From: a virus
Virus record (IMG/VR): IMGVR_UViG_3300031999_003076
Location: 1 to 24,391 of that record
Reading direction: 5' to 3' (one strand)
Length of the DNA: 24,391 nucleotides
Shown here: one piece after another, positions 2,772 through 23,883 of the stretch
Numbering within the stretch: position 1 is the stretch's first letter
Layout: every line of letters begins with the position of its first letter
The notes under the pieces: model-generated
Databases searched by the model: none
The model's input: the letters and a program-made list of their open reading frames with translations, nothing else
Told to the model about the DNA's origin: nothing
Program-made: the position numbers and the translations under genes

Positions 2772-3350
2772 ATGCGAAAGTTTAATAAAGAGAAATTAGA
2801 AAAAGCGGCAATTGCTTTAATTGACGCACTTGAATTGGATTTGCATGACCCTAATTTTGTAGATACGCCTAGTCGGATAGCTAGAATGTACGATGAGATA
2901 TGCTTGCCTAAAGAAGAGATAGAGGAACAAGTAAAGACGTACTTATCAAAGACGTTTCCTAGTCAGTATGATGGCATGGTAATTAGCAGAGGAATTCGTG
3001 CATATTCTGTATGCGGACATCACTTGCTACCGATAATTCTAGATGTGACATTAGCTTATATTCCTACTGATAAAGTGCTTGGCTTATCGAAGCTGGCACG
3101 CGTTGCTGTGACAATGGCTAAGCGACCACTAATCCAGGAAGACTATACACGTGATTTGGCAAGGATAATGATGGCGGTGTTAAAGCCTAAAGGTGTTGGT
3201 ATATACGTTGAAGGGGTACACTATTGCCAGACTATGCGTGGTGCTATGCAGAGAGATGCTATTATGACAACAACAGAAGTATTGGGGTGCTTTCGTAAAG
3301 ATGAGAAGACTAGAAGTGAGTTTCTTTTGGAAGCACGAACTAGAGTATGA
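2772..3350 (+). CDS. folE: GTP cyclohydrolase I
   Basis: FolE converts GTP to 7,8-dihydroneopterin triphosphate, the first step toward 7-deazaguanines and folate. The 192-residue protein has the zinc and catalytic residues C81, H83, H84 (CGHHLLP), H150 and C152 (GVHYCQTMRG), the GLSKLAR motif at 104-110, and the guanine-contacting QE at 122-123. The usual CEHH is CGHH here, a Glu-to-Gly change beside the zinc ligand. QueD, QueE, QueC and DpdA are in the same window, so it most likely feeds DNA modification rather than folate. AAGGAGGAG upstream of 2772 gives a strong start; the 3' end overlaps the next gene by 4 bases. Confidence 0.95.
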   Translation: MRKFNKEKLEKAAIALIDALELDLHDPNFVDTPSRIARMYDEICLPKEEIEEQVKTYLSKTFPSQYDGMVISRGIRAYSVCGHHLLPIILDVTLAYIPTDKVLGLSKLARVAVTMAKRPLIQEDYTRDLARIMMAVLKPKGVGIYVEGVHYCQTMRGAMQRDAIMTTTEVLGCFRKDEKTRSEFLLEARTRV

Positions 3351-3981: not shown

Positions 3982-5046
3982 ATGAATGTACCTTTACCGA
4001 CATTTATAACTGTAGTAATGAATATAGATTTTGACGAAAAAGATGGGAAGGTAGTAATCCCTGAATTTTTATGGAATTTTGATGCGATACTTTGCAGCGC
4101 AGGATTTTGGTATCCGCATACTCTCTTTGAGAAAAAAGGTAAGATAATGGTAGATTCCGCGGGCTTCCAGTTTCGCGGTCGGGCTAACCTACATAGACGA
4201 GGTGAGTTTCTTAGTCTGAGAGAAAAGTATTATCGTTGGCAGTGTGAGTATGGTGACTATATCATTGGTGGGGATATCCCGATTGGTATAACTAAGGATA
4301 TTAAGTTTATTAAAAATACGTTAGAGTTATCATTGAATAATATGCAGCTCCAATTTGATTTAGGTGCAGAGGGTCGTTACGTTAATGTTATACATGGTAG
4401 AGAGCCTGAGATAATTCGTTATTGGTATAGCGGAGTAAAAAAATTCCCTAGTATTGGTTGGGCATTTGGTTCTGCTTTAAAGACTTCTGTGTATGGTTTC
4501 GCTTTGCAATTGATAGCTCTTTATGAGTTAGGGGCATTTAAGCAGAAGCAGAAGATAATCCATTGTTTAGGAGCAACATCAAGAAAAGTCGCTGTTGGGA
4601 TGCATTATCTCGTTGAGAAGTTAGGAATAGAAACTGAGATGTTATCTTTTGATGCATCTAGTTCATCGGCGCATCGGTTTGGTATGCTTATAGATGAGAA
4701 TGGGGATGGCTTATCTTTCAAGGATGTTCGTGAAGGCAGGCCTTTTTTTCTTTGGAATGGCGAGAAGCTTGTTGATATACCGGCTAAGCTTGGCGGTGAA
4801 AGATTATATCATGTGATGAGAACAAATATGGAGAATGCTGTAAATGCTTGGAAAAAGAATGTTCAGAGAGTTGTTAGAGAGAAAGGAGAAGAGTATGATA
4901 GTTTGGTAGTTAGTAGTGGCGCCAAGTTTGTTTATGATACTTGGAAGGAACTTGGAGTGGATGGGTTGTGTAAAGAGATAGACCGTAGGGGTTTGATGGG
5001 AAGAGTATCAGCGATTGAAGCTATCGATAGCTGTAGGATTCTTTGA
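3982..5046 (+). CDS. dpdA: DpdA-like DNA guanine transglycosylase (7-deazaguanine insertion)
   Basis: The 354-residue protein is a phage-type member of the tRNA-guanine transglycosylase superfamily. DSAGFQ at 58-63 corresponds to the TGT motif with the catalytic Asp (D58), GGDIP is at 96-100, IHGRE at 137-141, and LSFDASS at 221-227 places a candidate nucleophile at D224. The TGT zinc site (CxCxxC with His) is not seen. DpdA enzymes exchange guanine in DNA for a 7-deazaguanine made by the FolE-QueD-QueE-QueC route, all of which is encoded here. It follows a structured leader and overlaps the polymerase gene (TGATG), consistent with modification coupled to replication. A tRNA-modifying role is less likely in this setting. 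Confidence 0.85.
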   Translation: MNVPLPTFITVVMNIDFDEKDGKVVIPEFLWNFDAILCSAGFWYPHTLFEKKGKIMVDSAGFQFRGRANLHRRGEFLSLREKYYRWQCEYGDYIIGGDIPIGITKDIKFIKNTLELSLNNMQLQFDLGAEGRYVNVIHGREPEIIRYWYSGVKKFPSIGWAFGSALKTSVYGFALQLIALYELGAFKQKQKIIHCLGATSRKVAVGMHYLVEKLGIETEMLSFDASSSSAHRFGMLIDENGDGLSFKDVREGRPFFLWNGEKLVDIPAKLGGERLYHVMRTNMENAVNAWKKNVQRVVREKGEEYDSLVVSSGAKFVYDTWKELGVDGLCKEIDRRGLMGRVSAIEAIDSCRIL

Positions 5047-8954: not shown

Positions 8955-10019
8955 ATGAGTATAACACAGAAGGAAAGAGAAAAGCTTGAAGAGGGTTTAA
9001 GAAAAGACCTTGGCGGGGGTACGATGGCTGAGATACCTGTTAGAGGCTTTTTGTCTACTGGCAGTATTTCACTTGATTACGCTATTCGAGGTCAGCTTTG
9101 GGATGGCGGATATCCTCGTGGTCGTATAGTTGAACTGTATGGGGACCCGTCAACTGGTAAAAGTTTGTTAATAGCCCATGCTATAGCTAATGCGCAAAAG
9201 CTTGGCTGGTATGTTATTTATGATGATGCAGAAAACTCTTTGGATTCGTTCTTTATGCAGAAGCTTGGCGTAAGGAATGACTTATCGATTGTTAATTCTG
9301 AGACAATCGAGGGCCATGTAAAGAGAGTTTCTCGTTGCATAAAGAAAATACGTGAAGCTGATGCTGAGACGCCCATCTTGATTTGTTTAGATAGCTTGGC
9401 AGCATTGTCAACAACGCATGAAAGAGGCTCACCTGAGAAGCTTGAAGCAGATGTTGCGAACGAAATAATTCCAGATGTCAATCTTGATAAGCGTGATATG
9501 ACTAAGGCACAGCTAATCAGAGGGGCAATGAGAGTATTAGCATCACGCTTTATGAAGGAAGATGTTTTATACATTTGCACTAATCACGTGACACAGAAGA
9601 TTGGGGTAATGTATGGACCGACAACAACGACGCCAGGAGGAACAGGGGTTAAGTTTCACGCATCTGTTAGGATAGACTTGAACAAAGGAAAGAAGTTCGA
9701 GAACAATGAAGGCCCGACTGGGCATCAGATTTATGCCGAAGTAACAAAAAATAAAGTAGCCCCACCGTATAAGAAGGTCAACTTCAATATGTTTTTTGCT
9801 TCTGGTGTTGACCTTTATTCTGGAACCTTTGATATTCTCCAAAAGATGGGGATAGTTAGCGAAGGCGGCGGGTGGTATACAACTCGCTTAACTGGGAAAG
9901 ATAAGTTTCGCAGTAAGACTTTAGAAACGCCTGAAATGATGGGAAAGTTAATAACAGCTGTAAGAGAAGGAAAAGAGTCAATTGAGGTTGCGGATGACGA
10001 AGAAAAGAAAGAAGACTAA
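8955..10019 (+). CDS. RecA/UvsX-like recombinase
   Basis: The 354-residue strand-exchange ATPase has Walker A GDPSTGKS at 63-70 and a Walker B strand ILICLDSLAAL near 135-145. A glycine-rich loop near residue 230 (TTTPGGTGVKF) corresponds to DNA-binding loop L2. Length and layout match T4 UvsX and phage RecA proteins. It would form filaments with the SSB and UvsY-like proteins encoded just upstream, for recombination-dependent replication and repair. GAAGGAGAAAG precedes ATG 8955. The tail is very acidic, as in many RecA proteins. The stop TAA is one base before the glycosyltransferase start. Confidence 0.92.
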   Translation: MSITQKEREKLEEGLRKDLGGGTMAEIPVRGFLSTGSISLDYAIRGQLWDGGYPRGRIVELYGDPSTGKSLLIAHAIANAQKLGWYVIYDDAENSLDSFFMQKLGVRNDLSIVNSETIEGHVKRVSRCIKKIREADAETPILICLDSLAALSTTHERGSPEKLEADVANEIIPDVNLDKRDMTKAQLIRGAMRVLASRFMKEDVLYICTNHVTQKIGVMYGPTTTTPGGTGVKFHASVRIDLNKGKKFENNEGPTGHQIYAEVTKNKVAPPYKKVNFNMFFASGVDLYSGTFDILQKMGIVSEGGGWYTTRLTGKDKFRSKTLETPEMMGKLITAVREGKESIEVADDEEKKED

Positions 10020-10020
10020 G

Positions 10021-10827
10021 ATGGTGACGATAGGGATTGTAACCGCGGATAGATATCCGATGTTGCTATCCTTATTACGTTCGTTGGCTACAATTGACCA
10101 CGTTACTGCCCACAAGACAGAGATTATTGTTTTAGACAATTCTGTTAATGATGGACCGGTAAGTAGTAGAGAATGGAACGCGATGCTTACTGTCTTAACG
10201 TTGTGTGGATTTACTATGAGGTATACTAAGATTTCGCATGGGTTTACTATATATCAGCTTAGGCAAATGGTTTTAGACATGTGTGAGTCGCGGTACCTTT
10301 GGTTTTTGGATGATGATTGTATAATTGTTAGAGACCCCTTGGCTATAATGTTGGGTACAATGCGGTATGCGAATGACAGCTATGGATTTGTTCAAGGTGC
10401 TGTGATTGATTGTGACAACACTGAAGGATTTAGTGATTGGAGTATTAAGAAAGATAAACTTGTTGAGATAGGAGGAACACCTTGTTGGTATTACTGGTAT
10501 AAAGAAAGTTATAGGGTTCCGACTATAAAAATGACTAATGCAAATGTGCTCTTAAATGTTAAAATTGCTAAGGATGTTGGTGGTTATACTTATAAAGGAG
10601 ATAGACCATTTGAAGCGCACCTTGGCAATGCTGATACGTATTTAGGAGCAAAGTTGGCTAGTGTTAGCCAGTGCTTATTTACAAGTGATGCTAGAGTATT
10701 TCATTATCCTGCTGAGAAAAGAAACTTTGTAAGAGACTTTTCTTGGATGTTTCCTATATTAGAAGATGGTTGTAGCAAAAAAGTGGTTGAAGCTTTATAC
10801 GCTTACCATAAGGCTAAGCATGGTTAG
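10021..10827 (+). CDS. GT-A fold glycosyltransferase (family 2-like)
   Basis: The 268-residue protein begins with a nucleotide-binding strand (VTIGIVTADRYP), has a second strand IIVLDNS at 35-41, and has a metal-binding DDD at 97-99 in YLWFLDDDC, all features of GT-A glycosyltransferases. An earlier in-frame ATG at 9982 would add 13 very basic residues inside the recA frame; ATG 10021, one base after the recA stop, fits the fold better. The acceptor is unknown. It could glycosylate modified DNA, a virion protein or the host surface. Its place just upstream of a radical SAM gene and queC makes a base-decorating role attractive, but that is inference. Confidence 0.75.
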   Translation: MVTIGIVTADRYPMLLSLLRSLATIDHVTAHKTEIIVLDNSVNDGPVSSREWNAMLTVLTLCGFTMRYTKISHGFTIYQLRQMVLDMCESRYLWFLDDDCIIVRDPLAIMLGTMRYANDSYGFVQGAVIDCDNTEGFSDWSIKKDKLVEIGGTPCWYYWYKESYRVPTIKMTNANVLLNVKIAKDVGGYTYKGDRPFEAHLGNADTYLGAKLASVSQCLFTSDARVFHYPAEKRNFVRDFSWMFPILEDGCSKKVVEALYAYHKAKHG

Positions 10828-10830
10828 AAT

Positions 10831-11766
10831 ATGAAGAATTATAATCCGAGACATTGTTGTTTTTACGTAACATCAAAATGTAATCTAGCTTGTAGCTATT
10901 GCTCGGTAGCTAAGAATTGGCCTAAAAGAGAAATGTCTATTGGTAGAGTATGTGAGACTCTTGACATAGTTAAGAACGTGGTTAAGCCTCAGTTTCTTGT
11001 TTTATTTGGTGGTGAACCTTTGTTGAGAGATGATATTAGCTCCCTTATTGACGAGGTAAATAAAAGAGACTTCGAGTATACTCTTATATCGAATGGAACT
11101 ATCGATAGGGAGTTTGTCATAAAAAAGTTGAGAGGCTTCACTTTGTCCATTGATAGACCGGATGAGGTTAAGGATGGCGTATCTGAAGCATGCAAGTCTA
11201 GTTGGAAAATGCTTAAGAAGTATAAGGATATCGTCCCTGACTTAGTAGCAAATATTACTGTTACGCATGACAATATAGACGACTTGGAAAAGATAGTCGA
11301 CCAGCTTAACGAGCTTGGGATATGGATTATCTTTGGGTATGTCCATAGTACGAGAAATAAAGAAGAGAAAGCAATGTTTAGAAGCTACTGCCCACGGTTG
11401 ACATTGACCGCTGAAGACTTTCAGACATTCAAGGAAGTATTTTATAAGGCAAAGAAAAGGCATAATGTTGATGCTTATGTTAAAGAGATGTCAAGGTATA
11501 TGGGAATGATGAATTGGCATTGTTCTAAGAATCCTCGGAATCCTGAATACCTTACGATAGCAAATAATGGGATGCTTATAGCTTGCAATGACTTTTGGGG
11601 AGAGAGAACGACTAAGCTTAGTGTGTTTGATTTGCCTGAGATTGGTATGAAGAAGTGGCTTGAGGTATGTAAGGAAGATAGGGAAGAGTGCCAATTGACG
11701 TGTGCGTATAATCATGAAGTGCAATTGTGCTACGGCGGAAACATTATCCATAAGGGAGATATATAA
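10831..11766 (+). CDS. Radical SAM enzyme with C-terminal cysteine-rich (SPASM/Twitch-like) region
   Basis: The 311-residue protein has the radical SAM cluster motif C17-x3-C21-x2-C24, GGEP at 60-63 and an LISNG element near 90, followed by a TIM-barrel pattern. The C-terminal third has extra cysteines, including a closely spaced group near residues 288-302 (ECQLTCAYNHEVQLC), which suggests one auxiliary iron-sulfur cluster. It differs from the QueE at 13321, which is shorter and lacks these cysteines. The stop overlaps queC by one base (TAATG), so it is co-translated with deazaguanine genes. Its reaction is unknown: modification of the deazaguanine, a sugar, or a peptide are all possible. 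Confidence 0.8.
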   Translation: MKNYNPRHCCFYVTSKCNLACSYCSVAKNWPKREMSIGRVCETLDIVKNVVKPQFLVLFGGEPLLRDDISSLIDEVNKRDFEYTLISNGTIDREFVIKKLRGFTLSIDRPDEVKDGVSEACKSSWKMLKKYKDIVPDLVANITVTHDNIDDLEKIVDQLNELGIWIIFGYVHSTRNKEEKAMFRSYCPRLTLTAEDFQTFKEVFYKAKKRHNVDAYVKEMSRYMGMMNWHCSKNPRNPEYLTIANNGMLIACNDFWGERTTKLSVFDLPEIGMKKWLEVCKEDREECQLTCAYNHEVQLCYGGNIIHKGDI

Positions 11767-12545
11767 TGGCATTACCGAGGTGTAAATCTTTGGCCAAATC
11801 AAGCGCTAGCCCTATACCGCCTACCTTAAAACGGCTTGGAATACAGGGTTCTGTGGTTTTATGCAAAAGTTCTGGTGTTGATAGTTTTATAGCCGAATTC
11901 TATTTAAAAAGATTAAAAGCTGAATATTTGAGTGTGTATTTTAATTTATGTACGAAGTATACTCGTAAAGAGGTTACTACAATACAGTATAAGCTTAATG
12001 GCGTTGATAAGATAGATGACAGATTGGCGTGGTTGGGGGAATGTGAGAAAGGTAGTAATGCTTTTATTCCACAGAGAAATTTGTTACTCGCTTCTGTAGC
12101 AAGTATTAAGTATGCTCATAATGTACTTATTGCGGGAATAAGTGGTGACGAAGTTGAGGATAAAAATCCTGAGTTTTTTAATGAAGTATCTGATGTATTG
12201 TCGGGCATTAGTAGATATAAGATTAGAGTATTTTCACCATTTTGGAATTTAGACAAGATTGAACTAGTAAAATGGTACATAGATGCTGGTGGAAGTATTG
12301 AACAGTTAAAAGAGACAGTGTCTTGTTACAGTTTTAAAGAAAGAGGGTGTTGTAATAAGTGCCCTAGTTGTTTTAGAAGATTTATAGCTCTAAGAGCAAA
12401 TGGAATAGCTATAGACTTTTACGATAGAAAACTTGCTCTTAGTTATTATAGAAGATGTTTAGCTGGAAAGTACGCTAAGAAAAGACGTATTGGAACTATA
12501 AGTGTGCTTAGAGATTACTATCAAGGTGATAAAAGATTTTTATGA
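11766..12545 (+). CDS. queC: QueC-like 7-cyano-7-deazaguanine (preQ0) synthase
   Basis: QueC turns 7-carboxy-7-deazaguanine, ammonia and ATP into preQ0. The 259-residue protein has a PP-loop at 35-40, the family element FIPQRNLLLAS at 100-110, and an exact QueC zinc site C187-x8-C196-x2-C199-x2-C202. The PP-loop reads SSGVDS instead of the usual SGGxDS, so one conserved glycine is serine. About 25 residues precede the PP-loop strand, longer than usual. It lies in a run with QueD and QueE. Identity is well supported; the altered loop leaves open changed activity or a variant product such as an amide. Confidence 0.85.
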   Translation: MALPRCKSLAKSSASPIPPTLKRLGIQGSVVLCKSSGVDSFIAEFYLKRLKAEYLSVYFNLCTKYTRKEVTTIQYKLNGVDKIDDRLAWLGECEKGSNAFIPQRNLLLASVASIKYAHNVLIAGISGDEVEDKNPEFFNEVSDVLSGISRYKIRVFSPFWNLDKIELVKWYIDAGGSIEQLKETVSCYSFKERGCCNKCPSCFRRFIALRANGIAIDFYDRKLALSYYRRCLAGKYAKKRRIGTISVLRDYYQGDKRFL

Positions 12546-12917: not shown

Positions 12918-13319
12918 ATGAAGGTATATTTGAAGAGAACAATAGCGGCAGGCCATATTTTAGAGAATAAGTCGAAGGATGCCGAATGGAATAAGAATAC
13001 TTTTGGTAAATGCAATCATGCGATTCATGGCCACAACTTTTTGGTTCAGGTATGGGTTGATGGACTTACTGATGAAGATACAGGTATGGTTGTAAACTTT
13101 AATGAGATAAAGAACGTTATTGATACTTTTGACCATGAGACATTGAATAATATTATGCCCACAATTCCGACAGCAGAAAATCTTGTTAGCTTAATGAAAG
13201 ATATGCTTATGAAAAAGCTTTATAGCATAAATGATACGATAACTGAAATACGTGTTAGGATTTGGGAAACTGACAATGCATATGCTGAAGATATAGTTTC
13301 GACTAAAAAAGATTTGTAA
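12918..13319 (+). CDS. queD: 6-carboxy-5,6,7,8-tetrahydropterin synthase
   Basis: QueD converts 7,8-dihydroneopterin triphosphate to carboxytetrahydropterin, the second step of deazaguanine synthesis. The 133-residue protein has the zinc ligands H13, H37 and H39 (HGHN), the catalytic cysteine region around C32, the GMVVNF element, the DHETLN motif with catalytic Asp-His, PTAEN, and the C-terminal WETDNAYAE with the substrate-binding Glu. Length is normal for the family. AGGAGG (12905-12910) sits 7 bases before the ATG. The stop is one base before queE, so the two are translated together. Confidence 0.93.
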   Translation: MKVYLKRTIAAGHILENKSKDAEWNKNTFGKCNHAIHGHNFLVQVWVDGLTDEDTGMVVNFNEIKNVIDTFDHETLNNIMPTIPTAENLVSLMKDMLMKKLYSINDTITEIRVRIWETDNAYAEDIVSTKKDL

Positions 13320-13320
13320 T

Positions 13321-13977
13321 ATGAAACTTATTCCGATATCTGAAATATTTATGGGATTGCAAGGGGAAGGACGTTATACTGGACACCCTGCGGTTTTTGT
13401 GAGGGTATCTGGATGCACGAGACATTGTTCCTATTGTGATAGTTCTTTTCATCGTCAACCGATAGCTAAGCTTAGCCCTGAAGATATATTGGCAGAAATA
13501 AAAAAGTGTGGAAAAGACCTAAAGGATTATAGGGTAGTATTGACTGGTGGTGAGCCTCTTTTAAGTAAAGAAGCACTTTTTGATTTCACTGACTGTTTAG
13601 CGTCGGAGGGTGTATACCAAATAGATTTAGAAACGAATGGTGATTTGATTAAGACGTACAATGATTGGTATGAATTATATTGGGACTTTGCTTACATCGC
13701 GATATCGCCTAAAGTCTATGAAGTAGGAAGAAGAGTGGCAAAGTTGTTTGAGAGAACAGACTCTAAAAGATATGATATAAAGATTGTCACAGATGGAAAA
13801 ATGCTTGGTATGGATATGCTAAGATTCGCGACAATGCTTATGCCTTTAACGACAAAAAATGAAAAAGAGAATAAGCTAATAAGACAGCGTGTATGGAATC
13901 AATGTATTCAGCATGGTTTGATTTTTTCCGGTCGACAGCATGTAGAAGTATGGGGACCAAAGAAGAGGGGTGTATGA
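13321..13977 (+). CDS. queE: 7-carboxy-7-deazaguanine synthase (radical SAM)
   Basis: QueE rearranges carboxytetrahydropterin to 7-carboxy-7-deazaguanine. The 218-residue protein begins with the family signature EIFMGLQGEG (8-17), then GHPAVFVRVSGC, with radical SAM cysteines C32, C36 and C39. TGGEPL is at 75-80, LETNG in the next strand and ISPK further on. All are canonical for QueE. It follows queD by one base and overlaps the phosphoribosyltransferase by 4 bases (ATGA). A second, cysteine-less relative is encoded at 17598. Confidence 0.95.
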   Translation: MKLIPISEIFMGLQGEGRYTGHPAVFVRVSGCTRHCSYCDSSFHRQPIAKLSPEDILAEIKKCGKDLKDYRVVLTGGEPLLSKEALFDFTDCLASEGVYQIDLETNGDLIKTYNDWYELYWDFAYIAISPKVYEVGRRVAKLFERTDSKRYDIKIVTDGKMLGMDMLRFATMLMPLTTKNEKENKLIRQRVWNQCIQHGLIFSGRQHVEVWGPKKRGV

Positions 13978-14423
13978 AGAAGGATGTAGCTATTCCTTGG
14001 AAGCTGTTAGATTCATTTAGAAGCCTTATTTTGGCTAATTACTTTGGGAAGGTTGATTTTGTTGTAGGTATAATGAATGGTGGTGGAATACCCGCTATAG
14101 TTGCTGGTTTGTCTTTGGACGTTCCGATATATTGGCTATATCTAAAAAGCTATAAGGGAAGAAAGTGTGGAAGAGTTGAGATGGAAACTTGTTTGCTTCC
14201 TATGGATAACCCTAAAGGAAGAATTTTACTTGTAGATGATATATTTGACTCTGGAAAAACATTAGAGTTTAGTTTAAGATTTTTGGATGGTTTAAAGTTT
14301 AAAAATGTTCAAAGCGTAACTATGTTATCTAAGGATAGAGAGAAAACAAAAAAGATGCACGTGGAATATTTGCTTAAAGCGGGGAAGAATCAGTGGGTGG
14401 TATTTCCGTGGGAGCATGAATGA
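13974..14423 (+). CDS. Phosphoribosyltransferase
   Basis: The preferred start is ATG 13974, overlapping the queE stop; a longer in-frame start at 13893 would lie wholly inside queE. The 149-residue protein has the type I PRTase PRPP-binding motif ILLVDDIFDSGKT at 84-96, an early strand FVVGIMNGGGIPA (29-41) like the PPi loop, and a flexible middle with Lys and Arg. Related enzymes attach ribose-5-phosphate to purine bases such as hypoxanthine, xanthine or guanine. In this operon it might salvage guanine released by DpdA, or convert a deazaguanine base to a nucleotide; either is inference. The stop overlaps the next gene (ATGA). Confidence 0.85.
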   Translation: MKKDVAIPWKLLDSFRSLILANYFGKVDFVVGIMNGGGIPAIVAGLSLDVPIYWLYLKSYKGRKCGRVEMETCLLPMDNPKGRILLVDDIFDSGKTLEFSLRFLDGLKFKNVQSVTMLSKDREKTKKMHVEYLLKAGKNQWVVFPWEHE

Positions 14424-14830
14424 GAAGTATATTTGTGCTATTCTTATTTTTAGTTATTACGCTACCTATGTCGGCAGCATCTATAAAGGAGCCGCCGAAG
14501 TATCTGTATAAAGGTTTACTTGGAGAAGCGGCTGATGATGGTTTTAATGGCCAGTATGCTGTAGCTTGTTGTGTTAGAAATCGTTTACGCAAGGGTATGT
14601 GGCATGGATTAGTTGCGATGAAGCGTAAAGACTTAAGTGACTATGTTTATAAGCAGCCTAAGGAATATAAACAAAGAGCTAAAAGGATAGTTGAGATGGT
14701 GTTCGCTGAGAATACTCCTGATACGACTGGAGGGGCAATATACTTTGAGAATACGCAAAAGTACGGAAAACCGAAGTTTTGTCATAGGAAGACGGTAAAG
14801 ATTGGAGAACATACTTTTTTTAGAAATTGA
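14420..14830 (+). CDS. SleB/CwlJ-type cell-wall hydrolase with signal sequence
   Basis: The 136-residue protein starts with a basic residue and a long hydrophobic stretch (4-16) ending near ASAAS-like small residues (17-21), a signal peptide or signal-anchor. The mature part has the Hydrolase_2 pattern: LLGEA at 33-37 with the presumed catalytic Glu36, GQYAVACCVRNR, and DTTGGAIYFEN near the C-terminus. Such enzymes cleave peptidoglycan, so this could be a secreted endolysin or spanin-independent lysis factor. It shows that the host has a peptidoglycan wall. It sits oddly in the middle of metabolic genes, linked to the PRTase by an ATGA overlap; no holin is recognised beside it. Confidence 0.8.
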   Translation: MRSIFVLFLFLVITLPMSAASIKEPPKYLYKGLLGEAADDGFNGQYAVACCVRNRLRKGMWHGLVAMKRKDLSDYVYKQPKEYKQRAKRIVEMVFAENTPDTTGGAIYFENTQKYGKPKFCHRKTVKIGEHTFFRN

Positions 14831-14866
14831 GTGTTAAGCTGTTAAATTTGTTTATATATTAAGGAG
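14829..14866 (+). promoter_or_regulatory. Promoter-like element upstream of the DUF932-like gene
   Basis: GTGTTAA (14831-14837) and TTTATA (14851-14856) have the same 20-base offset as at 1074 and 7481, followed by TATTAAGGAGG. TATATT (14853-14858) is a good -10-like box. This is the closest copy of the element at 1072. Confidence 0.5.
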
Positions 14867-14874
14867 GATTTAAT

Positions 14875-15819
14875 ATGGCTAAAGTAGTATGGCATAAGGT
14901 GGATACGAGACTAACCGGATTAAAGACTGTTGAAGTGGATGCGGCAGAAGTGCTAAAGACTGATTGGGATAAGCAAACAGGTATAGCAGTAATAGACAAA
15001 GAGGATGTTGAGATACCTGTCGATATGGGAAGATTTTTTAGCCCTCTTGGTCGTTATGGTCAAACGCTCATGAATGTAGATGCGAGGGAAGAGCTACGTG
15101 ACTCTTTGGCTGTGTATTGGTCCCACGAAGGAAAGCCTAAGATATTCGCTGATGCTCTTTGCTCTGAGACAGAAAGTATATACCTTCGTAGTAAGTTCGT
15201 TAAGGCTAAGACGGTTGATAGAATGATTGACGTAAATAGAGTAATAAGTGATGTAAATGAATCTGTTGAGTATGACCGGGTAGTTATAGGTAGCGATGAG
15301 AATACTCTTGAGGTTCAGTTTTTAAGTTCGGCAAATAGGGTAGAGGTTAAAGCTGGAGACTTCGTTGATGCTGGCTTATTCGTTACCTTTAACGGTAGAG
15401 TAAGGGTAGCAGCAGGAATCAATCGCTTAATTTGTACGAATGGGATGATACGGAGACTGGATGTATGGAAAGGGACAGATTTTAAGTTTGGTGCGGACTT
15501 CATTAAAAGAGGCGTAGAGCTAGCACAATGGTTCACCACGCAGCAAGATAGAAAAGTTGAGAGCATACGTGAGCTTAGTGTGGTTATGCGGGATTATCCT
15601 GGCAAAATTGAACGACTTTTTTGGCGCGGCTGGAGTGAGAAATGTGACCTTGGCGAGCTAACTTGGGCAGATGTGCTTAACGATGTAACAAATGTAGCTA
15701 ATCGGTCGCTTGGTAGTTTTAGATATAAGATGTTAAGCACTCCGGTGGCAATGGAGATATTGGATAAGGAAGATTGTCGCTGCCCAGTTTGTAGTGCAGG
15801 CGTAGGAGGAAATGTTTAG
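14875..15819 (+). CDS. DUF932-like phage protein
   Basis: The 314-residue protein resembles phage DUF932 proteins in length and in the element RLICTNGMIR in its second half, typical of that family; several Arg/Lys-rich strands precede it. The C-terminus ends with C-x-C-P-x-C (near residues 304-308), a possible metal site. DUF932 proteins are common in phages and plasmids, with no settled biochemical role. AAGGAGG at 14861-14867 sets the start, and a promoter-like element lies just upstream, so this gene begins a new transcription unit. Confidence 0.6.
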   Translation: MAKVVWHKVDTRLTGLKTVEVDAAEVLKTDWDKQTGIAVIDKEDVEIPVDMGRFFSPLGRYGQTLMNVDAREELRDSLAVYWSHEGKPKIFADALCSETESIYLRSKFVKAKTVDRMIDVNRVISDVNESVEYDRVVIGSDENTLEVQFLSSANRVEVKAGDFVDAGLFVTFNGRVRVAAGINRLICTNGMIRRLDVWKGTDFKFGADFIKRGVELAQWFTTQQDRKVESIRELSVVMRDYPGKIERLFWRGWSEKCDLGELTWADVLNDVTNVANRSLGSFRYKMLSTPVAMEILDKEDCRCPVCSAGVGGNV

Positions 15820-15820
15820 T

Positions 15821-16309
15821 ATGAGATGTAGGTACTGTGGAAGGGAAGTAACAAGTGGTAAGAAGTATTGTCGTGGACATAATCCGGCTAGTCACACTTA
15901 TAGGAATACGAAAGAAGGAAATAGAAAGATAAGTCTTTGGAATACTGGTCGACCATGTTCAGAAGAAAAATTAAGAAAAATGAGGGAAAATAATCCTACG
16001 TTGAGGGCTATAGGCAGTACACAGAAAGTTGGCGGGTATACGCAGATTAAAATTAGGATTGGTGAGAAAAATTTTTGGGTATATGAGCAGCGTTTGATAG
16101 TAGAACAGCACCTTGGAAGAAAGTTGCGGCGCGGAGAAGTTGTACACCATATCAATGAAGATAGAGCAGACAATTGTGTAGAAAATTTAATGGTCTTTAG
16201 TAGCAATGGCGCGCATTTAAAATATCATGCGGACCCATTGAGGGTTAGAATAGATGAGATTATTTTTAATGGAGGGGAATTAAATGGTAACTTTGCTAAT
16301 AGATGTTGA
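15821..16309 (+). CDS. HNH endonuclease with N-terminal zinc knuckle
   Basis: The protein has a CRYCG knuckle at its N-terminus with a later C and H (KYCRGH), then an HNH_3-type nuclease motif: VVHHINEDRADN followed by ENL and a terminal HLKYH. These are features of free-standing HNH homing endonucleases of phages. Start is uncertain: ATG 15812 is only 2 bases after AGGAGG (15804-15809) and ATG 15821 is 11 bases after; 162 residues result from the latter. The 3' end overlaps the next gene by 26 bases. It is probably a selfish insertion between two unrelated genes. Confidence 0.88.
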   Translation: MRCRYCGREVTSGKKYCRGHNPASHTYRNTKEGNRKISLWNTGRPCSEEKLRKMRENNPTLRAIGSTQKVGGYTQIKIRIGEKNFWVYEQRLIVEQHLGRKLRRGEVVHHINEDRADNCVENLMVFSSNGAHLKYHADPLRVRIDEIIFNGGELNGNFANRC

Positions 16310-17090
16310 TAATGTTATTCGTGCGCTTGATGTCTCAGTCTGGGGTAAATATAATGAGGTATGGGTAAAAGACGTTGATGGAGTACCATTTAGGGAGTTT
16401 ATCGAGAAGGACTTAGAGAAGTATCTCGTTAATGCCCCCGAGACAGAGTATTGTCAGACATTGAAAGATTGGGATGCTCTTGTTGGCATAAGTAACGTTA
16501 CATTTTTGACTAGTCAGCCGGTGACGTGGAGGCCGTATACTGAACGTTGGATTAAGGCTAGATTTCCGAATGCTAAGATTGTTTTTACCGACACGCCTGA
16601 GGATAAGATTGAGATACTCAATATGCTTAGACTCGCAGGAGCACCTGCAACGCTAATAGAAGATTACCCTAAGTTTAAGAGCTATCAAGGCATTACGCTT
16701 ATTGATAGGGCTTACAATAGAGAAATAAAAGCTGATACAAGAATAAAAGACCCGTTTCAGCTACTGCAAGTACTAATTCAGGCTTATGTGTATGGAATAA
16801 GAAATGCCGCAAAACTTTGCCATGCCATAGCGAAAAAGAAAGGTTGGTGGGATGATAAGCGTAGTGAGGGAGAAGCTATAGCGTTAATGCACTCAGAATT
16901 GTCTGAGGCACTTGAAGCAATGAGGGCGAAAGAAAGAAGTGAGAATGCTATTATAGAGGAATTGGTTGATACTTGTGTACGTGTGTTTGACTATTGTGAC
17001 GGCAAGTATCCTGATAGATTTGAGAATGGCTTTATAGCAAAGCTAGCTATCAATTTGGACAGACCATATAGACATGACAAAAGGTTTTAA
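16284..17090 (+). CDS. HAD-type nucleotidase fused to MazG-like nucleotide pyrophosphohydrolase
   Basis: The 268-residue protein has two enzymes. Residues 1-150 are HAD-like: DVDNV at 7-11 (motif I), FLTSQP (motif II), EDKIE (motif III Lys) and LIEDYP (motif IV acids), like deoxynucleotide 5'-nucleotidases. Residues 175-268 are an all-alpha MazG-type NTP pyrophosphatase with the metal-binding pattern HSELSEALEAMR and EELVDTCVRVFDY. Together they could degrade dNTPs to dNMPs and then to nucleosides, shaping the nucleotide pool. GGAGGGGAA before ATG 16284 is strong although the gene starts inside the HNH frame. Functions are read from motifs; the nucleotide specificity is unknown. Confidence 0.82.
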   Translation: MVTLLIDVDNVIRALDVSVWGKYNEVWVKDVDGVPFREFIEKDLEKYLVNAPETEYCQTLKDWDALVGISNVTFLTSQPVTWRPYTERWIKARFPNAKIVFTDTPEDKIEILNMLRLAGAPATLIEDYPKFKSYQGITLIDRAYNREIKADTRIKDPFQLLQVLIQAYVYGIRNAAKLCHAIAKKKGWWDDKRSEGEAIALMHSELSEALEAMRAKERSENAIIEELVDTCVRVFDYCDGKYPDRFENGFIAKLAINLDRPYRHDKRF

Positions 17091-17100
17091 GAGGAGTACA

Positions 17101-17616
17101 ATGGAGGATAGAATATTAGCAAAGTTTGTTGTCAATGTGATTATTAAGAAGCAGAAAGCGCCTTCTATGCCTGTGTGGATGGAAGAGCTGCTTAAGCGTT
17201 ATACGATTGTTGATTCTGACAATCGTATAGTTTTGAGTATGCCGGTAGATTGGGTAGGATTGACTGATGGAACAGTACATGATATAATCAATCAATTTGG
17301 GTCGGCAGCATATATCTCATTGGCTTATATTACGAATGGAGATGAGATAGTTGTTGATTGCTCTGGTGAACGTGTAGATACTTTTAAGATGGTTGAAGGT
17401 AGTATTATAATGCAGAGGTATGTTAAGAGGGATTTACGCATAATTAAGATATTAAACAAGGAGAGGGAGGTATTTATAGTGAAAGACTATATTCTTGACC
17501 TTTCAAAGTTTGATAGCATTGTAAAGGTATTGGATTTATATTGTGTTGGTATGGAAAGTGGAATTAGGGTTGCAGATTTTTTAGCGGGGGGTCGCTTATG
17601 TCAAAAAATGTCTTAG
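17101..17616 (+). CDS. Unknown protein, 171 aa
   Basis: AGAGGAG just before ATG 17101 favours this start over ATG 17074 inside the preceding gene. The product mixes strands and helices, with no transmembrane segment, cysteine cluster or nucleotide-binding loop that I can recognise. Its last 6 codons overlap the start of the QueE-like gene at 17598. The overlap and shared orientation suggest that the two are expressed together, so it may be a partner of that protein, but this is only proximity. Confidence 0.65.
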   Translation: MEDRILAKFVVNVIIKKQKAPSMPVWMEELLKRYTIVDSDNRIVLSMPVDWVGLTDGTVHDIINQFGSAAYISLAYITNGDEIVVDCSGERVDTFKMVEGSIIMQRYVKRDLRIIKILNKEREVFIVKDYILDLSKFDSIVKVLDLYCVGMESGIRVADFLAGGRLCQKMS

Positions 17617-18233
17617 TTGTAGAGTCAATCGTTGACACTATCCGTGGTGAGTCGCCATCGTCTGGTGTGCCGTCACTTGTATTAAATGTTGACCCTGAAA
17701 GTGAGAGGGAGATTAACGCGGATGCTTTTTGCGATTTAGTAAAGGATAGCGTAGGAGAGGTTGTCACGTTCATCGGTAGGCCGTTTACTCAGCTACCTGC
17801 TTTAGCAGAGCTGGTTACGTCTTTTTATTCTTGCAAAGGAGATAAGAAGATTTTTATAGAGACATCTGGAAGAATATCGAAGGAGATGCAGCAGAGAGAG
17901 CTTATTGTTCCTATTGTATCGAAGACTACTTTGGTTATTAAGCCTCGGGTTGGCAATATAAACAGTAAGGAATACGAGTGGTTAGCTCATTATCGTTTTA
18001 GTAGCGTGTACTGGAAATTTTCGTGGCAAGGAAATGTTGAGAAGACTAACGATTTAATATCAACGTTCTTTCGCTTCTGTTTAAGCAAAGATGTCATTGA
18101 GGATGTAAGTGAGGGCAGGGTAATCCTTATCCCTAAGGATATTGACAATAAGGATGAGTGCAAGGAAGTATGGAACTATTGCTTGATGTCGCATATTAGG
18201 TACTCTGCGAGAGAATCACGACGACTATTTTGA
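17598..18233 (+). CDS. Cysteine-less QueE-like protein (probable inactive radical SAM homologue)
   Basis: This 211-residue protein follows the QueE outline but lacks the iron-sulfur site. The N-terminal EIFMGLQGEG of QueE corresponds to ESIVDTIRGES (9-19), then G-x-P and a hydrophobic strand. Where QueE has CxxxCxxC this protein has an acidic stretch without cysteines (about 31-40). VVTFIGRPFTQ (55-65) matches VVLTGGEPLLS, and IFIETSG (85-91) matches IDLETNG, at similar spacings. Later, VIKPR corresponds to ISPK. It therefore probably keeps the barrel but cannot bind the cluster. It may bind a deazaguanine or pterin, or partner the active QueE at 13321. It was matched by eye, not by alignment software. 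Confidence 0.6.
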   Translation: MSKNVLVVESIVDTIRGESPSSGVPSLVLNVDPESEREINADAFCDLVKDSVGEVVTFIGRPFTQLPALAELVTSFYSCKGDKKIFIETSGRISKEMQQRELIVPIVSKTTLVIKPRVGNINSKEYEWLAHYRFSSVYWKFSWQGNVEKTNDLISTFFRFCLSKDVIEDVSEGRVILIPKDIDNKDECKEVWNYCLMSHIRYSARESRRLF

Positions 18234-18615: not shown

Positions 18616-18798
18616 ATGAACGAGTTTGTGACGAGTGTAATATCTAGTTCAAGAGGTTTACAAGGATTAAAGAAGATGCGCAATAGGACTGGAAAGGAGC
18701 CTACGTATAAATGTAGCAACTGTAAGTGTATACGCTATTCGTCTTGCAATTGCTCATTGCCAAAAGGCAAAGAAAGAAAGGAAGAGGTTACAGAGTGA
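18616..18798 (+). CDS. Small cysteine-rich protein
   Basis: The ATG at 18616 lies 4 bases after GGAGG (18607-18611). The 60-residue protein is basic, with CSNCKC and a following CNC near residues 33-46, a probable zinc-binding knuckle, and a charged Lys/Glu tail. Its stop overlaps the GTG start of the SbcD-SbcC gene (GTGA), so the two are coupled. No family is recognised. Confidence 0.6.
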   Translation: MNEFVTSVISSSRGLQGLKKMRNRTGKEPTYKCSNCKCIRYSSCNCSLPKGKERKEEVTE

Positions 18799-21731
18799 AG
18801 ATAGGATTTATAACAGACAGCCATTTATGCAACTGGCGAGACTTTGGTGATACCGGCATTCAGCGGGGTAGGATATCACGAAGGATGCAGTCTCAGCTTA
18901 ATGTGTTAATACAGGCTTTTGATATATTTGAGAAATCAAAAGTAGATTATGTATGCCATCTTGGGGATTGGACGCACTCTGTAGGGATAACAAAGAATGA
19001 AGAATTAAATGCTTTGGTTGAATTGCTTGAAAGACAAGATTTTGATTGGACCTATGTGCATGGAAATCATGATACTGCTGTAAGAATAAAGCCTGACGAC
19101 CATAATATTATAACAAATGTAATAGAAAGATTTGCAAGGTCGACTGGGGAATTAGAGAAAGAACTGAAAATAAAGATTGTAAATTACTATGATGAAGTAG
19201 ACTATGACGAGATTAAGGGCTATGATTTAGTACTATTGCATAAGACACCTTGTGGTGCAAAGATTGGTTCATTTATATTTGAGGACGGTGTTGATTGGAA
19301 GAGGTTAGCTGATACAAATCGTTTAGTGCTATTTGGACATATTCATCAAAAGCAAGTATTGGCAAAGAATTGTATAATACTTGGTTCACCAATGCCGTTT
19401 ACGTTTGGCGATGAGGGAGAAAGAGGCATTTGGATTTTAGATACAGAAGATTTTAGTATAGAATTTCGTAAGCTAAAGTATCCTGAGTTTGTAACTGTTG
19501 AAAATCCGGATGAAGTGAAAGAAGATGGAAATTATTATCGTGTATTGAACTGTAAGGAGAAGATAAATAAGCAGAATGTAATATCGGTAAGAAAACCGGA
19601 AGTTTTCGAGGAAAGGATAAAGGCGAATACGTTTGACGGTATAGTAGGTGAATGGCTTAAGTTGAACGGTAAGGATGATGCCTATAGAGAATCGATAAAG
19701 GATTTGGTTACGGATAAGTTTCAGCTTGAGAGGAATATTTTCAAGGGAAAGATTAAGTCTGTTGTGGTGGATAACTTTGGTTCAGTAGATAGAGTAGCTT
19801 ATAAGATAGTGAATGGCTTTATTTATGTATCAGGAAGTAGCGATACAATGGATAGTAACGGAAGCGGGAAGACAAGCGTTTTCGGCGAGGCTCCGTATTG
19901 GTGCTTATTTGATGAGACTACGAAAGGTGTAAGTGGTGATTCAGTTATTCGTGATACTCCTGAGCTACAGCCTGATTGCAAAGTAGAGCTTGTGCTAGCT
20001 GATGGAGATACAGAGATAAAGATATCGAGAACAAGGAAGAAAGGCTTATTGGTTATTCGTAATGGCGAAGAACTTGTTGGAGGATTACGCCAAGCCGATA
20101 GACAGAAATATCTTGAGACATTGCTTGGTATTGATAAGACAATGTTTCTTGCATCTTGTTACTTTAGTCAGAAGAATTTGATAACACTTACAGGCTTAGG
20201 TGATGCAGAAAAAACTGGAATGATAACTGACTTACTTGGTTTCGAAGCCTATGATGATTTGTATGGTGGGGTAACGACAAAGATAAAGGTAAAAGAGAAT
20301 GAGCTGTCCGCCCTTACGCAATCAGAGGCGTTAAGATTAGAAAATGAGCTAAAGATAATTGAAAGTAGCGAAAAGTTAATGGAAAAAAGGATAGATGAAT
20401 TAAAGGATTCGTTGATTAACGTCGAGGAAAGGCTTATCACTAAAAAGAAATCGCTTAATGAGCAATTGCGGGAAGATAAGTCGCCTATAAATGTAGATGA
20501 AGTACGAAAAGAAATAGATGAATGCCTAACTACAGTAGCTAGCTTAGAGAAGGAAGAGGAAACATGCCAAGCTTGCATAGGTGAAAAGGAAGAAGGATTG
20601 AATATTGTTTATAGCGAACAGACAAAAATTGCTAATGGCTTGCACGCTGTAAAGGTGGAACGAACATCACTTGATAGGGCGGTAGAGATGCTTAGAATGC
20701 AGATAGCTAAGGTTAGTGGTGCAAAGATAGATGGACGTTGTGAGAATTGTGGAGCAGAGATAACAGAAGCAAATAAGCAAGCTTTCATTAAAGAGAAGGA
20801 AGAAGAAATAGCTAAGCATAGAAAAAGTATATCCGATTATGAGGTACAGATTAATGCTATAGAAGAAGCACTTACTCAAGTAAAGACTGCCTTTACTGAT
20901 TTGCAGAAAGTTATAGCTGAGATTAAAGAGCTTAAAGCTAAATATAGAAGAGACATTGAGGTATTTCGTAGAAAGAAAGATAATCTTACGAAAGCATTGC
21001 AGGAAGAGGAGCTTAGAAGCACTAAGATAGAACAGATAAAGAAAGAGCTTAGTGAGCAGATAGCTGAGTATTTGAAGGATATAGAAGGATACGAGATAAG
21101 CATAGTAGATGCGGTTAAGGAAAAGAAGGAACTCCAGCCTAAGAAGGAAGAGATAAAGATTGCGATAGCTGATATCACCAGGAAGGTTGCTTCATTGGCA
21201 AAAGATATAGAGCAGCTAAACTTTTGGAAGACGGCCTTTTCGTCTAAGGGAATACGTGGCTTATTGTTGGATAGGTTCTGTAATGAGATAAATGACTTTG
21301 CTAATAAGTACCTCTCGATAGTTAGTGATGGTACAATGAGTATGGTAATGACGCCCACAAAGACTTTAAAGTCCGGTGAGGAAAGAAATAAGATTGGCTT
21401 GGATATCTTTGTTGGAGATAAACTTAAAAGCTATATTCAGTTAAGCGGCGGAGAACAGAAGAGATGTGAGATATCGATATGTTTAGGGTTAAACAGATGG
21501 ATAGCGACGAGGTACAATATTCCGCATGGATTGTTTGGCATAATGGTTATTGATGAGTTATTTAGCCATATAGACGCTGGGGGCGCTGATTCTATAGCAC
21601 AGTTACTACATGAAGAAAGCGCGAATAGGTCTTTAATAGTGATTGAGCATAATGCTGGATTGGCTTCATATGCGGATTTGATACTTAGAGTTGTTAAGGA
21701 GAATGGGGTATCGAGGTTGGAGGTTGGGTGA
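18795..21731 (+). CDS. Fused SbcD-SbcC (Mre11-Rad50 / gp47-gp46) nuclease-ATPase
   Basis: The frame is open from 18726, but GTG 18795 gives the proper Mre11 N-terminus and overlaps the upstream stop; GGAAGAGG lies just before it. The 978-residue chain begins with the calcineurin-like nuclease: D8/H10, GD at 57-58, GNHD at 90-93 and GHIH at 181-184. A Rad50-like ATPase follows: Walker A SNGSGKT (354-360), a Q-loop in CYFSQKN, coiled coils, zinc hook C649-E-N-C652, signature LSGGEQ (883-888), Walker B with D920-E921, and H952. In T4 and most bacteria these are two proteins. It should process DNA ends for UvsX recombination. Confidence 0.93.
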   Translation: MKIGFITDSHLCNWRDFGDTGIQRGRISRRMQSQLNVLIQAFDIFEKSKVDYVCHLGDWTHSVGITKNEELNALVELLERQDFDWTYVHGNHDTAVRIKPDDHNIITNVIERFARSTGELEKELKIKIVNYYDEVDYDEIKGYDLVLLHKTPCGAKIGSFIFEDGVDWKRLADTNRLVLFGHIHQKQVLAKNCIILGSPMPFTFGDEGERGIWILDTEDFSIEFRKLKYPEFVTVENPDEVKEDGNYYRVLNCKEKINKQNVISVRKPEVFEERIKANTFDGIVGEWLKLNGKDDAYRESIKDLVTDKFQLERNIFKGKIKSVVVDNFGSVDRVAYKIVNGFIYVSGSSDTMDSNGSGKTSVFGEAPYWCLFDETTKGVSGDSVIRDTPELQPDCKVELVLADGDTEIKISRTRKKGLLVIRNGEELVGGLRQADRQKYLETLLGIDKTMFLASCYFSQKNLITLTGLGDAEKTGMITDLLGFEAYDDLYGGVTTKIKVKENELSALTQSEALRLENELKIIESSEKLMEKRIDELKDSLINVEERLITKKKSLNEQLREDKSPINVDEVRKEIDECLTTVASLEKEEETCQACIGEKEEGLNIVYSEQTKIANGLHAVKVERTSLDRAVEMLRMQIAKVSGAKIDGRCENCGAEITEANKQAFIKEKEEEIAKHRKSISDYEVQINAIEEALTQVKTAFTDLQKVIAEIKELKAKYRRDIEVFRRKKDNLTKALQEEELRSTKIEQIKKELSEQIAEYLKDIEGYEISIVDAVKEKKELQPKKEEIKIAIADITRKVASLAKDIEQLNFWKTAFSSKGIRGLLLDRFCNEINDFANKYLSIVSDGTMSMVMTPTKTLKSGEERNKIGLDIFVGDKLKSYIQLSGGEQKRCEISICLGLNRWIATRYNIPHGLFGIMVIDELFSHIDAGGADSIAQLLHEESANRSLIVIEHNAGLASYADLILRVVKENGVSRLEVG

Positions 21732-23243: not shown

Positions 23244-23624
23244 ATGAGTAAACCGGATAGTTTGATGATTGATGAGGTTAGGTATGTGCGGGCAGATTGT
23301 GTACAAGAAAAAGCACCAAGTTTAGCTGGCATGGAACGCTGTATTGTGCGCTCCTACGGAGCTGGTGTGTTTATCGGTTATGTAAGCGAAAAGAAAGCGG
23401 AACTAAACGGAGTGAACATAACGCTACTCAAAGCCAAGCGCATACACTATTGGTCTGGAGCGTGTTCGTTGACACAATTAGCATTAGACGGCACAAAGGA
23501 CGGTGGTAATTGTCGAATTACAGACGCGATTGATAGCCAATTTATTGCAAACGTGATTGAGATTATCCCAGTAACCGCCAAGGCCAGTAAAATTATTGAT
23601 GAGGTAAAAATATGGCAGCAATGA
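23244..23624 (+). CDS. DUF6948-like phage protein
   Basis: The 126-residue protein has the features of a conserved phage family: CIVRSYGAGVFIGYV followed by a basic strand, RIHYWSGACSLTQLALDGT, then a Val/Ile-rich end (FIANVIEIIPVT). Function is unknown; it is frequent in phage accessory regions. AAAGGAGGG at 23231-23239 gives a strong, independent start, unlike the coupled genes before it. The 3' end overlaps the start of the Gly-repeat gene by 13 bases in another frame. Confidence 0.7.
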   Translation: MSKPDSLMIDEVRYVRADCVQEKAPSLAGMERCIVRSYGAGVFIGYVSEKKAELNGVNITLLKAKRIHYWSGACSLTQLALDGTKDGGNCRITDAIDSQFIANVIEIIPVTAKASKIIDEVKIWQQ

Positions 23625-23842
23625 TTTTTACTGGCGATGGCTCTGGCCATGGCTCTGGCTCTGGCTATGGCTCTGGCGATGGCTATGGCTATGGCTATGG
23701 CTATGGCTATGGCTATGGCTCTGGCGATGGCTATGGCTATGGCTATGGCTATGGCTATGGCTCTGGCAATGGCGATGGCTCTGGCGATGGCGATGGCTCT
23801 GGCTATGGCTCTGGCGATGGCTATGGCTATGGTAAAGGTTAG
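23612..23842 (+). CDS. Gly-Tyr/Gly-Ser/Gly-Asp repeat protein
   Basis: After MAAMIFT the 76-residue protein is almost only Gly alternating with Tyr, Ser or Asp, ending GKG. Gly is always GGC in the array. It would be a disordered, Tyr-rich low-complexity protein, of the kind able to self-associate. All three forward frames are free of stops over the array, so the Gly frame is chosen because it has the start codon, a plausible overlap with the previous gene, and the amphipathic composition; the Ala-Met frame (from 23637) is the alternative. Similar hexanucleotide-repeat genes are known from other phages, with no assigned function. Confidence 0.6.
   Translation: MAAMIFTGDGSGHGSGSGYGSGDGYGYGYGYGYGYGSGDGYGYGYGYGYGSGNGDGSGDGDGSGYGSGDGYGYGKG
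23631..23832 (+). repeat. Degenerate tandem hexanucleotide array (GGCTAT / GGCTCT / GGCGAT)
   Basis: About 200 bases consist of a 6-base unit GGC-N-N-T, with TAT most common, then TCT and GAT, and single CAT and AAT variants: roughly 33 units. The GGC is unchanged throughout while the other triplet varies only among Tyr, Ser, Asp, His and Asn codons. Replication slippage should alter the copy number quickly. Confidence 0.95.
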
Positions 23843-23883
23843 CGTTGATTGAGAAGAAGGCGGAGGTGAAGGGTGAGTTGTGA
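23842..23883 (+). pseudogene. Vestigial 3' end of a lost cassette gene
   Basis: Between the repeat gene stop (23840-23842) and the next start (GTG 23873) the sequence reads open as LIEKKAEVKG from TTG 23845. It closely matches the C-terminus ALIESKAEVRE of the gene ending at 24318, at both DNA (GC-TTGATTGAG and GCGGAGGTGA shared) and protein level, but no gene body precedes it. It looks like the tail left after deletion or replacement of a gene. Confidence 0.45.

Follow-up and report, generated by a model that had tools for sequence, protein, structure and literature searches.

We found that the window (by which we mean the whole stretch of viral DNA analysed here, 24,391 nucleotides, positions 1 to 24,391 of the IMG/VR record IMGVR_UViG_3300031999_003076) encodes two proteins of the QueE type. 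One is a canonical QueE, the 7-carboxy-7-deazaguanine synthase, with all conserved motifs (13321..13977, plus strand). The other, a protein of 211 aa (P0001; 17598..18233, plus strand), is almost certainly a homolog of QueE in which the radical SAM center is missing; we call it pseudo-QueE. The original prediction had described a complete QueE accompanied by a QueE homolog that lacks the radical SAM cysteines, and this description was backed by profile comparisons, by shuffle controls and by the predicted fold. All coordinates refer to the window; the motifs given below, as well as the pathway genes folE, queC, queD, queE and the dpdA-like gene, lie on the plus strand.

Gene and reading frame

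The open reading frame was present at 17598-18233, and the motifs RGES (residues 16-19), FIGRPFTQ (58-65), ETSG (88-91) and IKPR (114-117) were all situated where the original prediction had placed them. As it had also claimed, the protein carries neither CxxxCxxC nor any other cysteine cluster; its five cysteines (residues 45, 79, 161, 188 and 195) are scattered. The complete QueE that had been reported 3.6 kb upstream was recognized at 13321-13977 by NCBIfam QueE models (~1e-19), by the PHROG QueE family (3.6e-32) and by alignment. The codon usage of the pseudo-QueE gene matched that of the window genes in its own frame only (0.15 vs. -0.70 and -0.96 bits per codon), with 5 to 22 stops in the other frames of 17598-18233.

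Directly upstream lies a 180-aa ORF without an assigned function (17074..17616, plus strand), whose last 19 bases are shared with the beginning of the pseudo-QueE gene; translation of the two is likely to be coupled. We considered this ORF as another piece of QueE and rejected it, since no relation to QueE was detected. An apparent run of stops behind the pseudo-QueE gene, seen in a profile search of whole viral records, turned out to be an alignment extending beyond the TGA stop.

Several other features surround these genes. The product of 16284-17090 resembles phage pyrophosphatase families in its C-terminal part, where the motif is MazG-like, and its N-terminal part is perhaps HAD-like. At 18726-21731, a single ORF of 1001 aa fuses SbcD-like and SbcC-like parts. 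A low-complexity repeat at 23612-23852 encodes, depending on the frame, peptides of the GYGYGSGDG type or of the MAMALA type.

Similarity to the QueE family

A QueE profile was built from 138 QueEs of the loci fetched here, with the pseudo-QueE left out. Against this profile the pseudo-QueE scored 33.1 bits (E=2.1e-8 for 10,000 sequences), compared to 6.2 bits for the best of its 5000 shuffled versions. The alignment covered positions 19-43 and 67-222 of the model and skipped positions 44-66, the stretch that holds CxxxCxxC. The profile-profile comparison proposed in the original prediction led to the QueE family and not to an unrelated one: hhalign against 53 QueEs gave 96.8-97.3% over residues 2-208. 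In the controls, 200 shuffled sequences did not exceed 18%, and the other proteins of the window did not exceed 11%, excepting the window QueE and a second radical SAM protein.

Comparisons with single sequences gave the same family. In a phmmer search of 17,164 ORFs, the top non-self matches of the pseudo-QueE were QueEs, for example those of loci L092 and L093. The nearest single sequence was the canonical QueE of a related virus, L257 (BLASTP, residues 8-211, E=3e-7), and the same QueE was the sole return of a scan with patterns common to the pseudo-QueE and the sister viral clade. Sequence comparison also revealed a C-terminal signature shared with this sister clade of viral QueEs, VWNYC at residues 191-195 (18168..18182); 13 of 143 QueEs have its tryptophan at the corresponding column. 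Nothing in the sequence ties the protein more clearly to the QueE clade found in this group of viruses than the longer C-terminal match ILIP...KEVWNYC...RYSAR, which the original prediction did not mention.

It could be argued that the resemblance arose by chance and that the true family is another one: no curated family matched the pseudo-QueE above its cut-off (Pfam Fer4_12 0.0077, PHROG QueE 0.16), and AlphaFold2 run on the single sequence gave no fold (pLDDT 40), but the profile, profile-profile and pairwise statistics with their shuffle controls contradict this reading, which we regard as exceedingly improbable.

Catalytic residues lost and kept

We compared the pseudo-QueE with 53 aligned QueEs residue by residue. 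The three cluster cysteines were present in 53 of the 53 QueEs and none of them in the pseudo-QueE. The site of the deleted CxxxCxxC loop is occupied by residues 30-38 (NVDPESERE, 17685..17711), which makes it a net ~14 residues shorter than in the window QueE, and the arginine of F-x-R is replaced by N30. Around this site, the QueE motifs could be followed in the alignment one after another. RGES (17643..17654) corresponds to QGEG, with the glutamine replaced and G-E kept. FIGRPFTQ (17769..17792) corresponds to TGGEPLLQ, with the second glycine and the proline kept and the glutamate changed to arginine. ETSG (17859..17870) corresponds to ETNG/ETSG and is intact; it is not a degenerate form, as E. 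coli QueE has ETSG as well. Finally, KPR (residues 115-117, 17940..17948) corresponds to SPK, with the serine changed to lysine, the lysine to arginine and the proline kept.

Further residues lost are the glutamine of QGEG (R16), the arginine of F-x-R (N30), the magnesium-binding threonine of CDT (P33), the serine of SPK (K115), the C-terminal histidine (S207), and the T, G and E of TGGE (F58, I59 and R61), so that the GGE SAM motif is absent. The residues kept are G17-E18, G23, P25, G60, P62, E88-T89-G91, P116, the invariant lysine K140 and P179.

In E. coli QueE, the substrate is bound by Q13, E15 and R27, the cluster by C31/C35/C38 and magnesium by T40, and the R27A mutant makes no Q-tRNA (PMC11142719). 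The three substrate residues correspond to R16, E18 and N30 of the pseudo-QueE, i.e., one of the three is kept. Given established chemistry, the loss of the cluster cysteines together with the other catalytic residues would rule out that the protein makes CDG by the known mechanism; we hold with high confidence that the pseudo-QueE would have no CDG synthase activity of this kind.

Predicted structure

With the alignment of 53 QueEs as input, AlphaFold2 produced a model of the pseudo-QueE with pLDDT 89.4 and pTM 0.86. The alignment was composed of QueEs, and therefore the QueE fold of the model is partly circular, a supportive result rather than an independent proof. The structure search suggested in the original prediction put QueE first and did not bring up an unrelated fold. 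With VIA-align, the best match was B. subtilis QueE 5TH5 (Z 17.5, 185 residues, 2.5 A), followed by E. coli QueE 6NHL (Z 16.5), PFL activase (15.1) and other radical SAM proteins (~10). Foldseek matches were weak in PDB (best E 1.6e-3), and in BFVD they included phage QueE-like models at 6e-6 and better. The model contains the full set of QueE secondary-structure elements, both termini included. The pseudo-QueE is thus predicted to have the QueE partial barrel.

Origin and distribution

In the phylogenetic tree, the window QueE was located inside a clade of viral QueEs (L013-L018, L173 and L174) with 100/100 support; the QueE of L257 is similar by sequence to this clade. The branch of the pseudo-QueE was as long as ~7 changes per column, and its position in the tree was unsure. 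The placement as a sister to the window QueE was rejected (AU 0.004), and the placements as a sister to the viral QueE clade (AU 0.22) or to an Archaeoglobaceae/Desulfurellales pair (AU 0.095) were not, with a long-branch caveat on all three values. These results are easier to reconcile with an old duplication of QueE, or with uptake of the gene from a related virus, than with recent copying of the neighboring queE.

Among the viral contigs searched, the pseudo-QueE is known only from this virus and from the near-identical contig IMGVR_UViG_3300031746_002328 (99.8% identity over the shared region, with no differences in the pseudo-QueE gene). Genome contigs and plasmids contained no close relative, and phages gave chance matches only, the best of which (in a Halorubrum virus) was on the strand opposite to the annotated gene. 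We looked for a second cysteine-less QueE around QueE loci (~160 viral, ~80 genomic) and saw none; searches over the full length of 30 further viral records with a QueE, many of them fragmentary, showed no counterpart either. The original prediction had called for a search for such a gene next to queE or dpdA in related phages; none was found among the QueE loci and the whole related records. Judging by these searches, the pseudo-QueE is an orphan confined to a single population of viruses, and this status restricts the generality of the finding. We found no published report of a cysteine-less QueE in a literature search that missed most subscription journals.

Pathway genes in the window

Together with the pseudo-QueE, the window encodes a complete FolE-QueD-QueE-QueC-DpdA-like set. 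FolE (GTP cyclohydrolase I) is encoded at 2772..3350 (1.1e-51), QueC at 11766..12545 (PF06508, 2.6e-15) and QueD (6-carboxytetrahydropterin synthase) at 12918..13319 (TIGR03367, 2e-18), next to queE. The DpdA-like, or TGT-like, transglycosylase (3982..5046, with the motif DSAGFQ) is divergent: it aligns with proteins of L014 and L017 that exceed the Pfam cut-off for TGT, while its own TGT match is only 0.043. At 5043-7484, with a TTG start, a uracil-DNA glycosylase domain (PF03167, 5e-23) is fused N-terminally to a family A DNA polymerase.

The surroundings of queC and queE hold further genes of interest. The second radical SAM protein is encoded immediately upstream of queC (10831-11766), and a radical SAM gene is also found close upstream of queC in L257 (3425-4435, with queC at 4404-5021) and in L014 (12522-13541, with queC at 14649-15359). 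This protein may elaborate the modified base. The contig L004 (IMGVR_UViG_3300031885_002373, region 9244-11599) is ~96% identical to the window and changes over to a diverged radical SAM gene at ~11116-11598, which points to mosaic exchange at the radical SAM gene on the queC side. An HPRT-like phosphoribosyltransferase (13893-14423) overlaps the end of queE, and similar phosphoribosyltransferases adjoin pathway genes in L014, L045 and L061. A family 2 glycosyltransferase (9982-10824), whose start overlaps recA, precedes the radical SAM-queC pair; the addition of a sugar to DNA or to a surface is possible.

Possible role

The pseudo-QueE is quite probably a functional protein rather than junk: its frame and all secondary-structure elements survived near-saturated divergence, which favors selection on the protein. 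The original prediction had proposed a new role for it. That the phage pathway for 7-deazaguanine in DNA includes a non-catalytic QueE as a functioning component, be it a subunit of QueE or of DpdA or a protein that binds or reads the modified base, falls a little short of an even call. As the first choice, and a tentative one, we suggest a partner or regulator of QueE and of the preQ0 pathway. A non-catalytic partner is favored since the barrel survives, the radical SAM center is gone, and an active QueE is encoded alongside with the whole pathway.

Known structures show QueE as a homodimer. In the mechanism that we propose, an anciently diverged paralog of QueE, or a QueE from a related virus, would have lost the [4Fe-4S]/SAM center and stayed folded. 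The resulting protein would most likely pair with the active QueE and, we infer, stabilize, tune or dock it, as prozymes do. The partner reading is weakened by the location of the pseudo-QueE gene, outside the queC-queD-queE block and 3.6 kb from queE. Other phages manage without the protein, as the 30 QueE-bearing records with no counterpart indicate, and the terminal branch of ~7 changes per column disfavors a strong conservation of an interface.

The second choice, which we consider rather unlikely, is a ligand binder, in which a partial pterin/deazaguanine pocket holds, delivers or senses CPH4, CDG, preQ0 or the modified base. The loss of the cluster and SAM side along with the retention of E18 (E15 of E. 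coli) on the substrate side and of the intact ETSG would agree with such a pocket. Pterin-binding dihydropteroate synthases were also among the structural neighbors of the model, though their Z of ~8 is background. However, two of the three E. coli substrate residues (Q13 and R27) and the C-terminal histidine were replaced, and the residues that were kept may serve the structure only.

Could the gene be a dispensable remnant of a QueE, with relaxed constraint and no present function? An orphan gene on a very long branch, with nearly every catalytic residue lost in a scattered pattern and with a codon signal below that of most neighboring genes, is what one would see in this case. On the other hand, under saturated neutral drift at the composition of the pseudo-QueE, ~15 stops would be expected, and a stop-free frame of 211 codons would have p ~2e-7. 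In addition, all QueE secondary-structure elements and the typical structural residues persist, and we think that a remnant is unlikely.

A new cluster-independent enzyme of the same or a related pathway is less plausible still. It would make use of the fresh polar residues R16, N30, R61 and K115 at the old active-site positions, and the pathway does have unexplained extra genes (the radical SAM gene beside queC, the glycosyltransferase and the phosphoribosyltransferase). Yet for a protein without relatives one cannot point to a conserved new set of catalytic residues, and there is no positive support for catalysis. Least plausible among these roles is an effector directed at the host, proposed by analogy with the block of septation by E. 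coli QueE, which inhibits division independently of Q synthesis, even as the catalytically dead R27A; the segment E45-W67 and the cysteines C31/C35, to which division inhibition was assigned (PMC11142719), have no counterpart in the pseudo-QueE, and this disfavors inhibition of the E. coli type.

Comparison with known systems

If the role in the pathway is true, the preQ0 pathway would have its first pseudoenzyme in this protein. If the protein is functional, the phage preQ0 pathway can use a dead QueE helper, and the protein would offer a handle on the assembly and regulation of QueE and on the hand-over of unstable pterin intermediates. A protein without function would simply be another diverged paralog in a single virus population. 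The pseudo-QueE also offers a clean natural example of how a radical SAM fold can persist when precisely the cluster loop is lost.

With characterized QueEs (5TGS/5TH5, 6NHL, 4NJG) the pseudo-QueE shares the full-length alignment, the order and spacing of motifs and the predicted fold; it differs from them in the absence of the cluster cysteines, of GGE and of the active-site Q, R and H, and in its extreme divergence. The division regulator of E. coli (PMC11142719) likewise has a QueE fold and a function independent of catalysis (in our case, a proposed one), but the segment and the cysteines needed there are deleted here. The haloarchaeal family TIGR04347, by its name "pseudo-SAM/SPASM", indicates that radical SAM folds without the center are a known kind; however, it belongs to another radical SAM branch (SPASM), and the pseudo-QueE has no match to it.

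In trypanosomes, AdoMetDC and deoxyhypusine synthase are activated by dead paralogs called prozymes (PMC5201418, PMC6221367, PMC3663545). Similarly, the pseudo-QueE is a dead paralog encoded in the same genome as the active counterpart of an oligomeric enzyme. The enzymes and organisms are different, binding or activation of QueE by the pseudo-QueE is putative, and prozymes are conserved across species, in contrast to the orphan described here.

For 7-deazaguanine DNA modification in phages, FolE-QueD-QueE-QueC-DpdA was reported as the minimal set for dPreQ0, and phage QueEs were found to cluster with bacterial and archaeal QueE (PMC6884629). The window holds this minimal set as well, while a cysteine-less QueE was not reported in that study. 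Pseudoenzymes are a known kind of protein; judging by the papers searched, a catalytically inactive QueE alongside the preQ0 pathway of a phage would be a new form of them.
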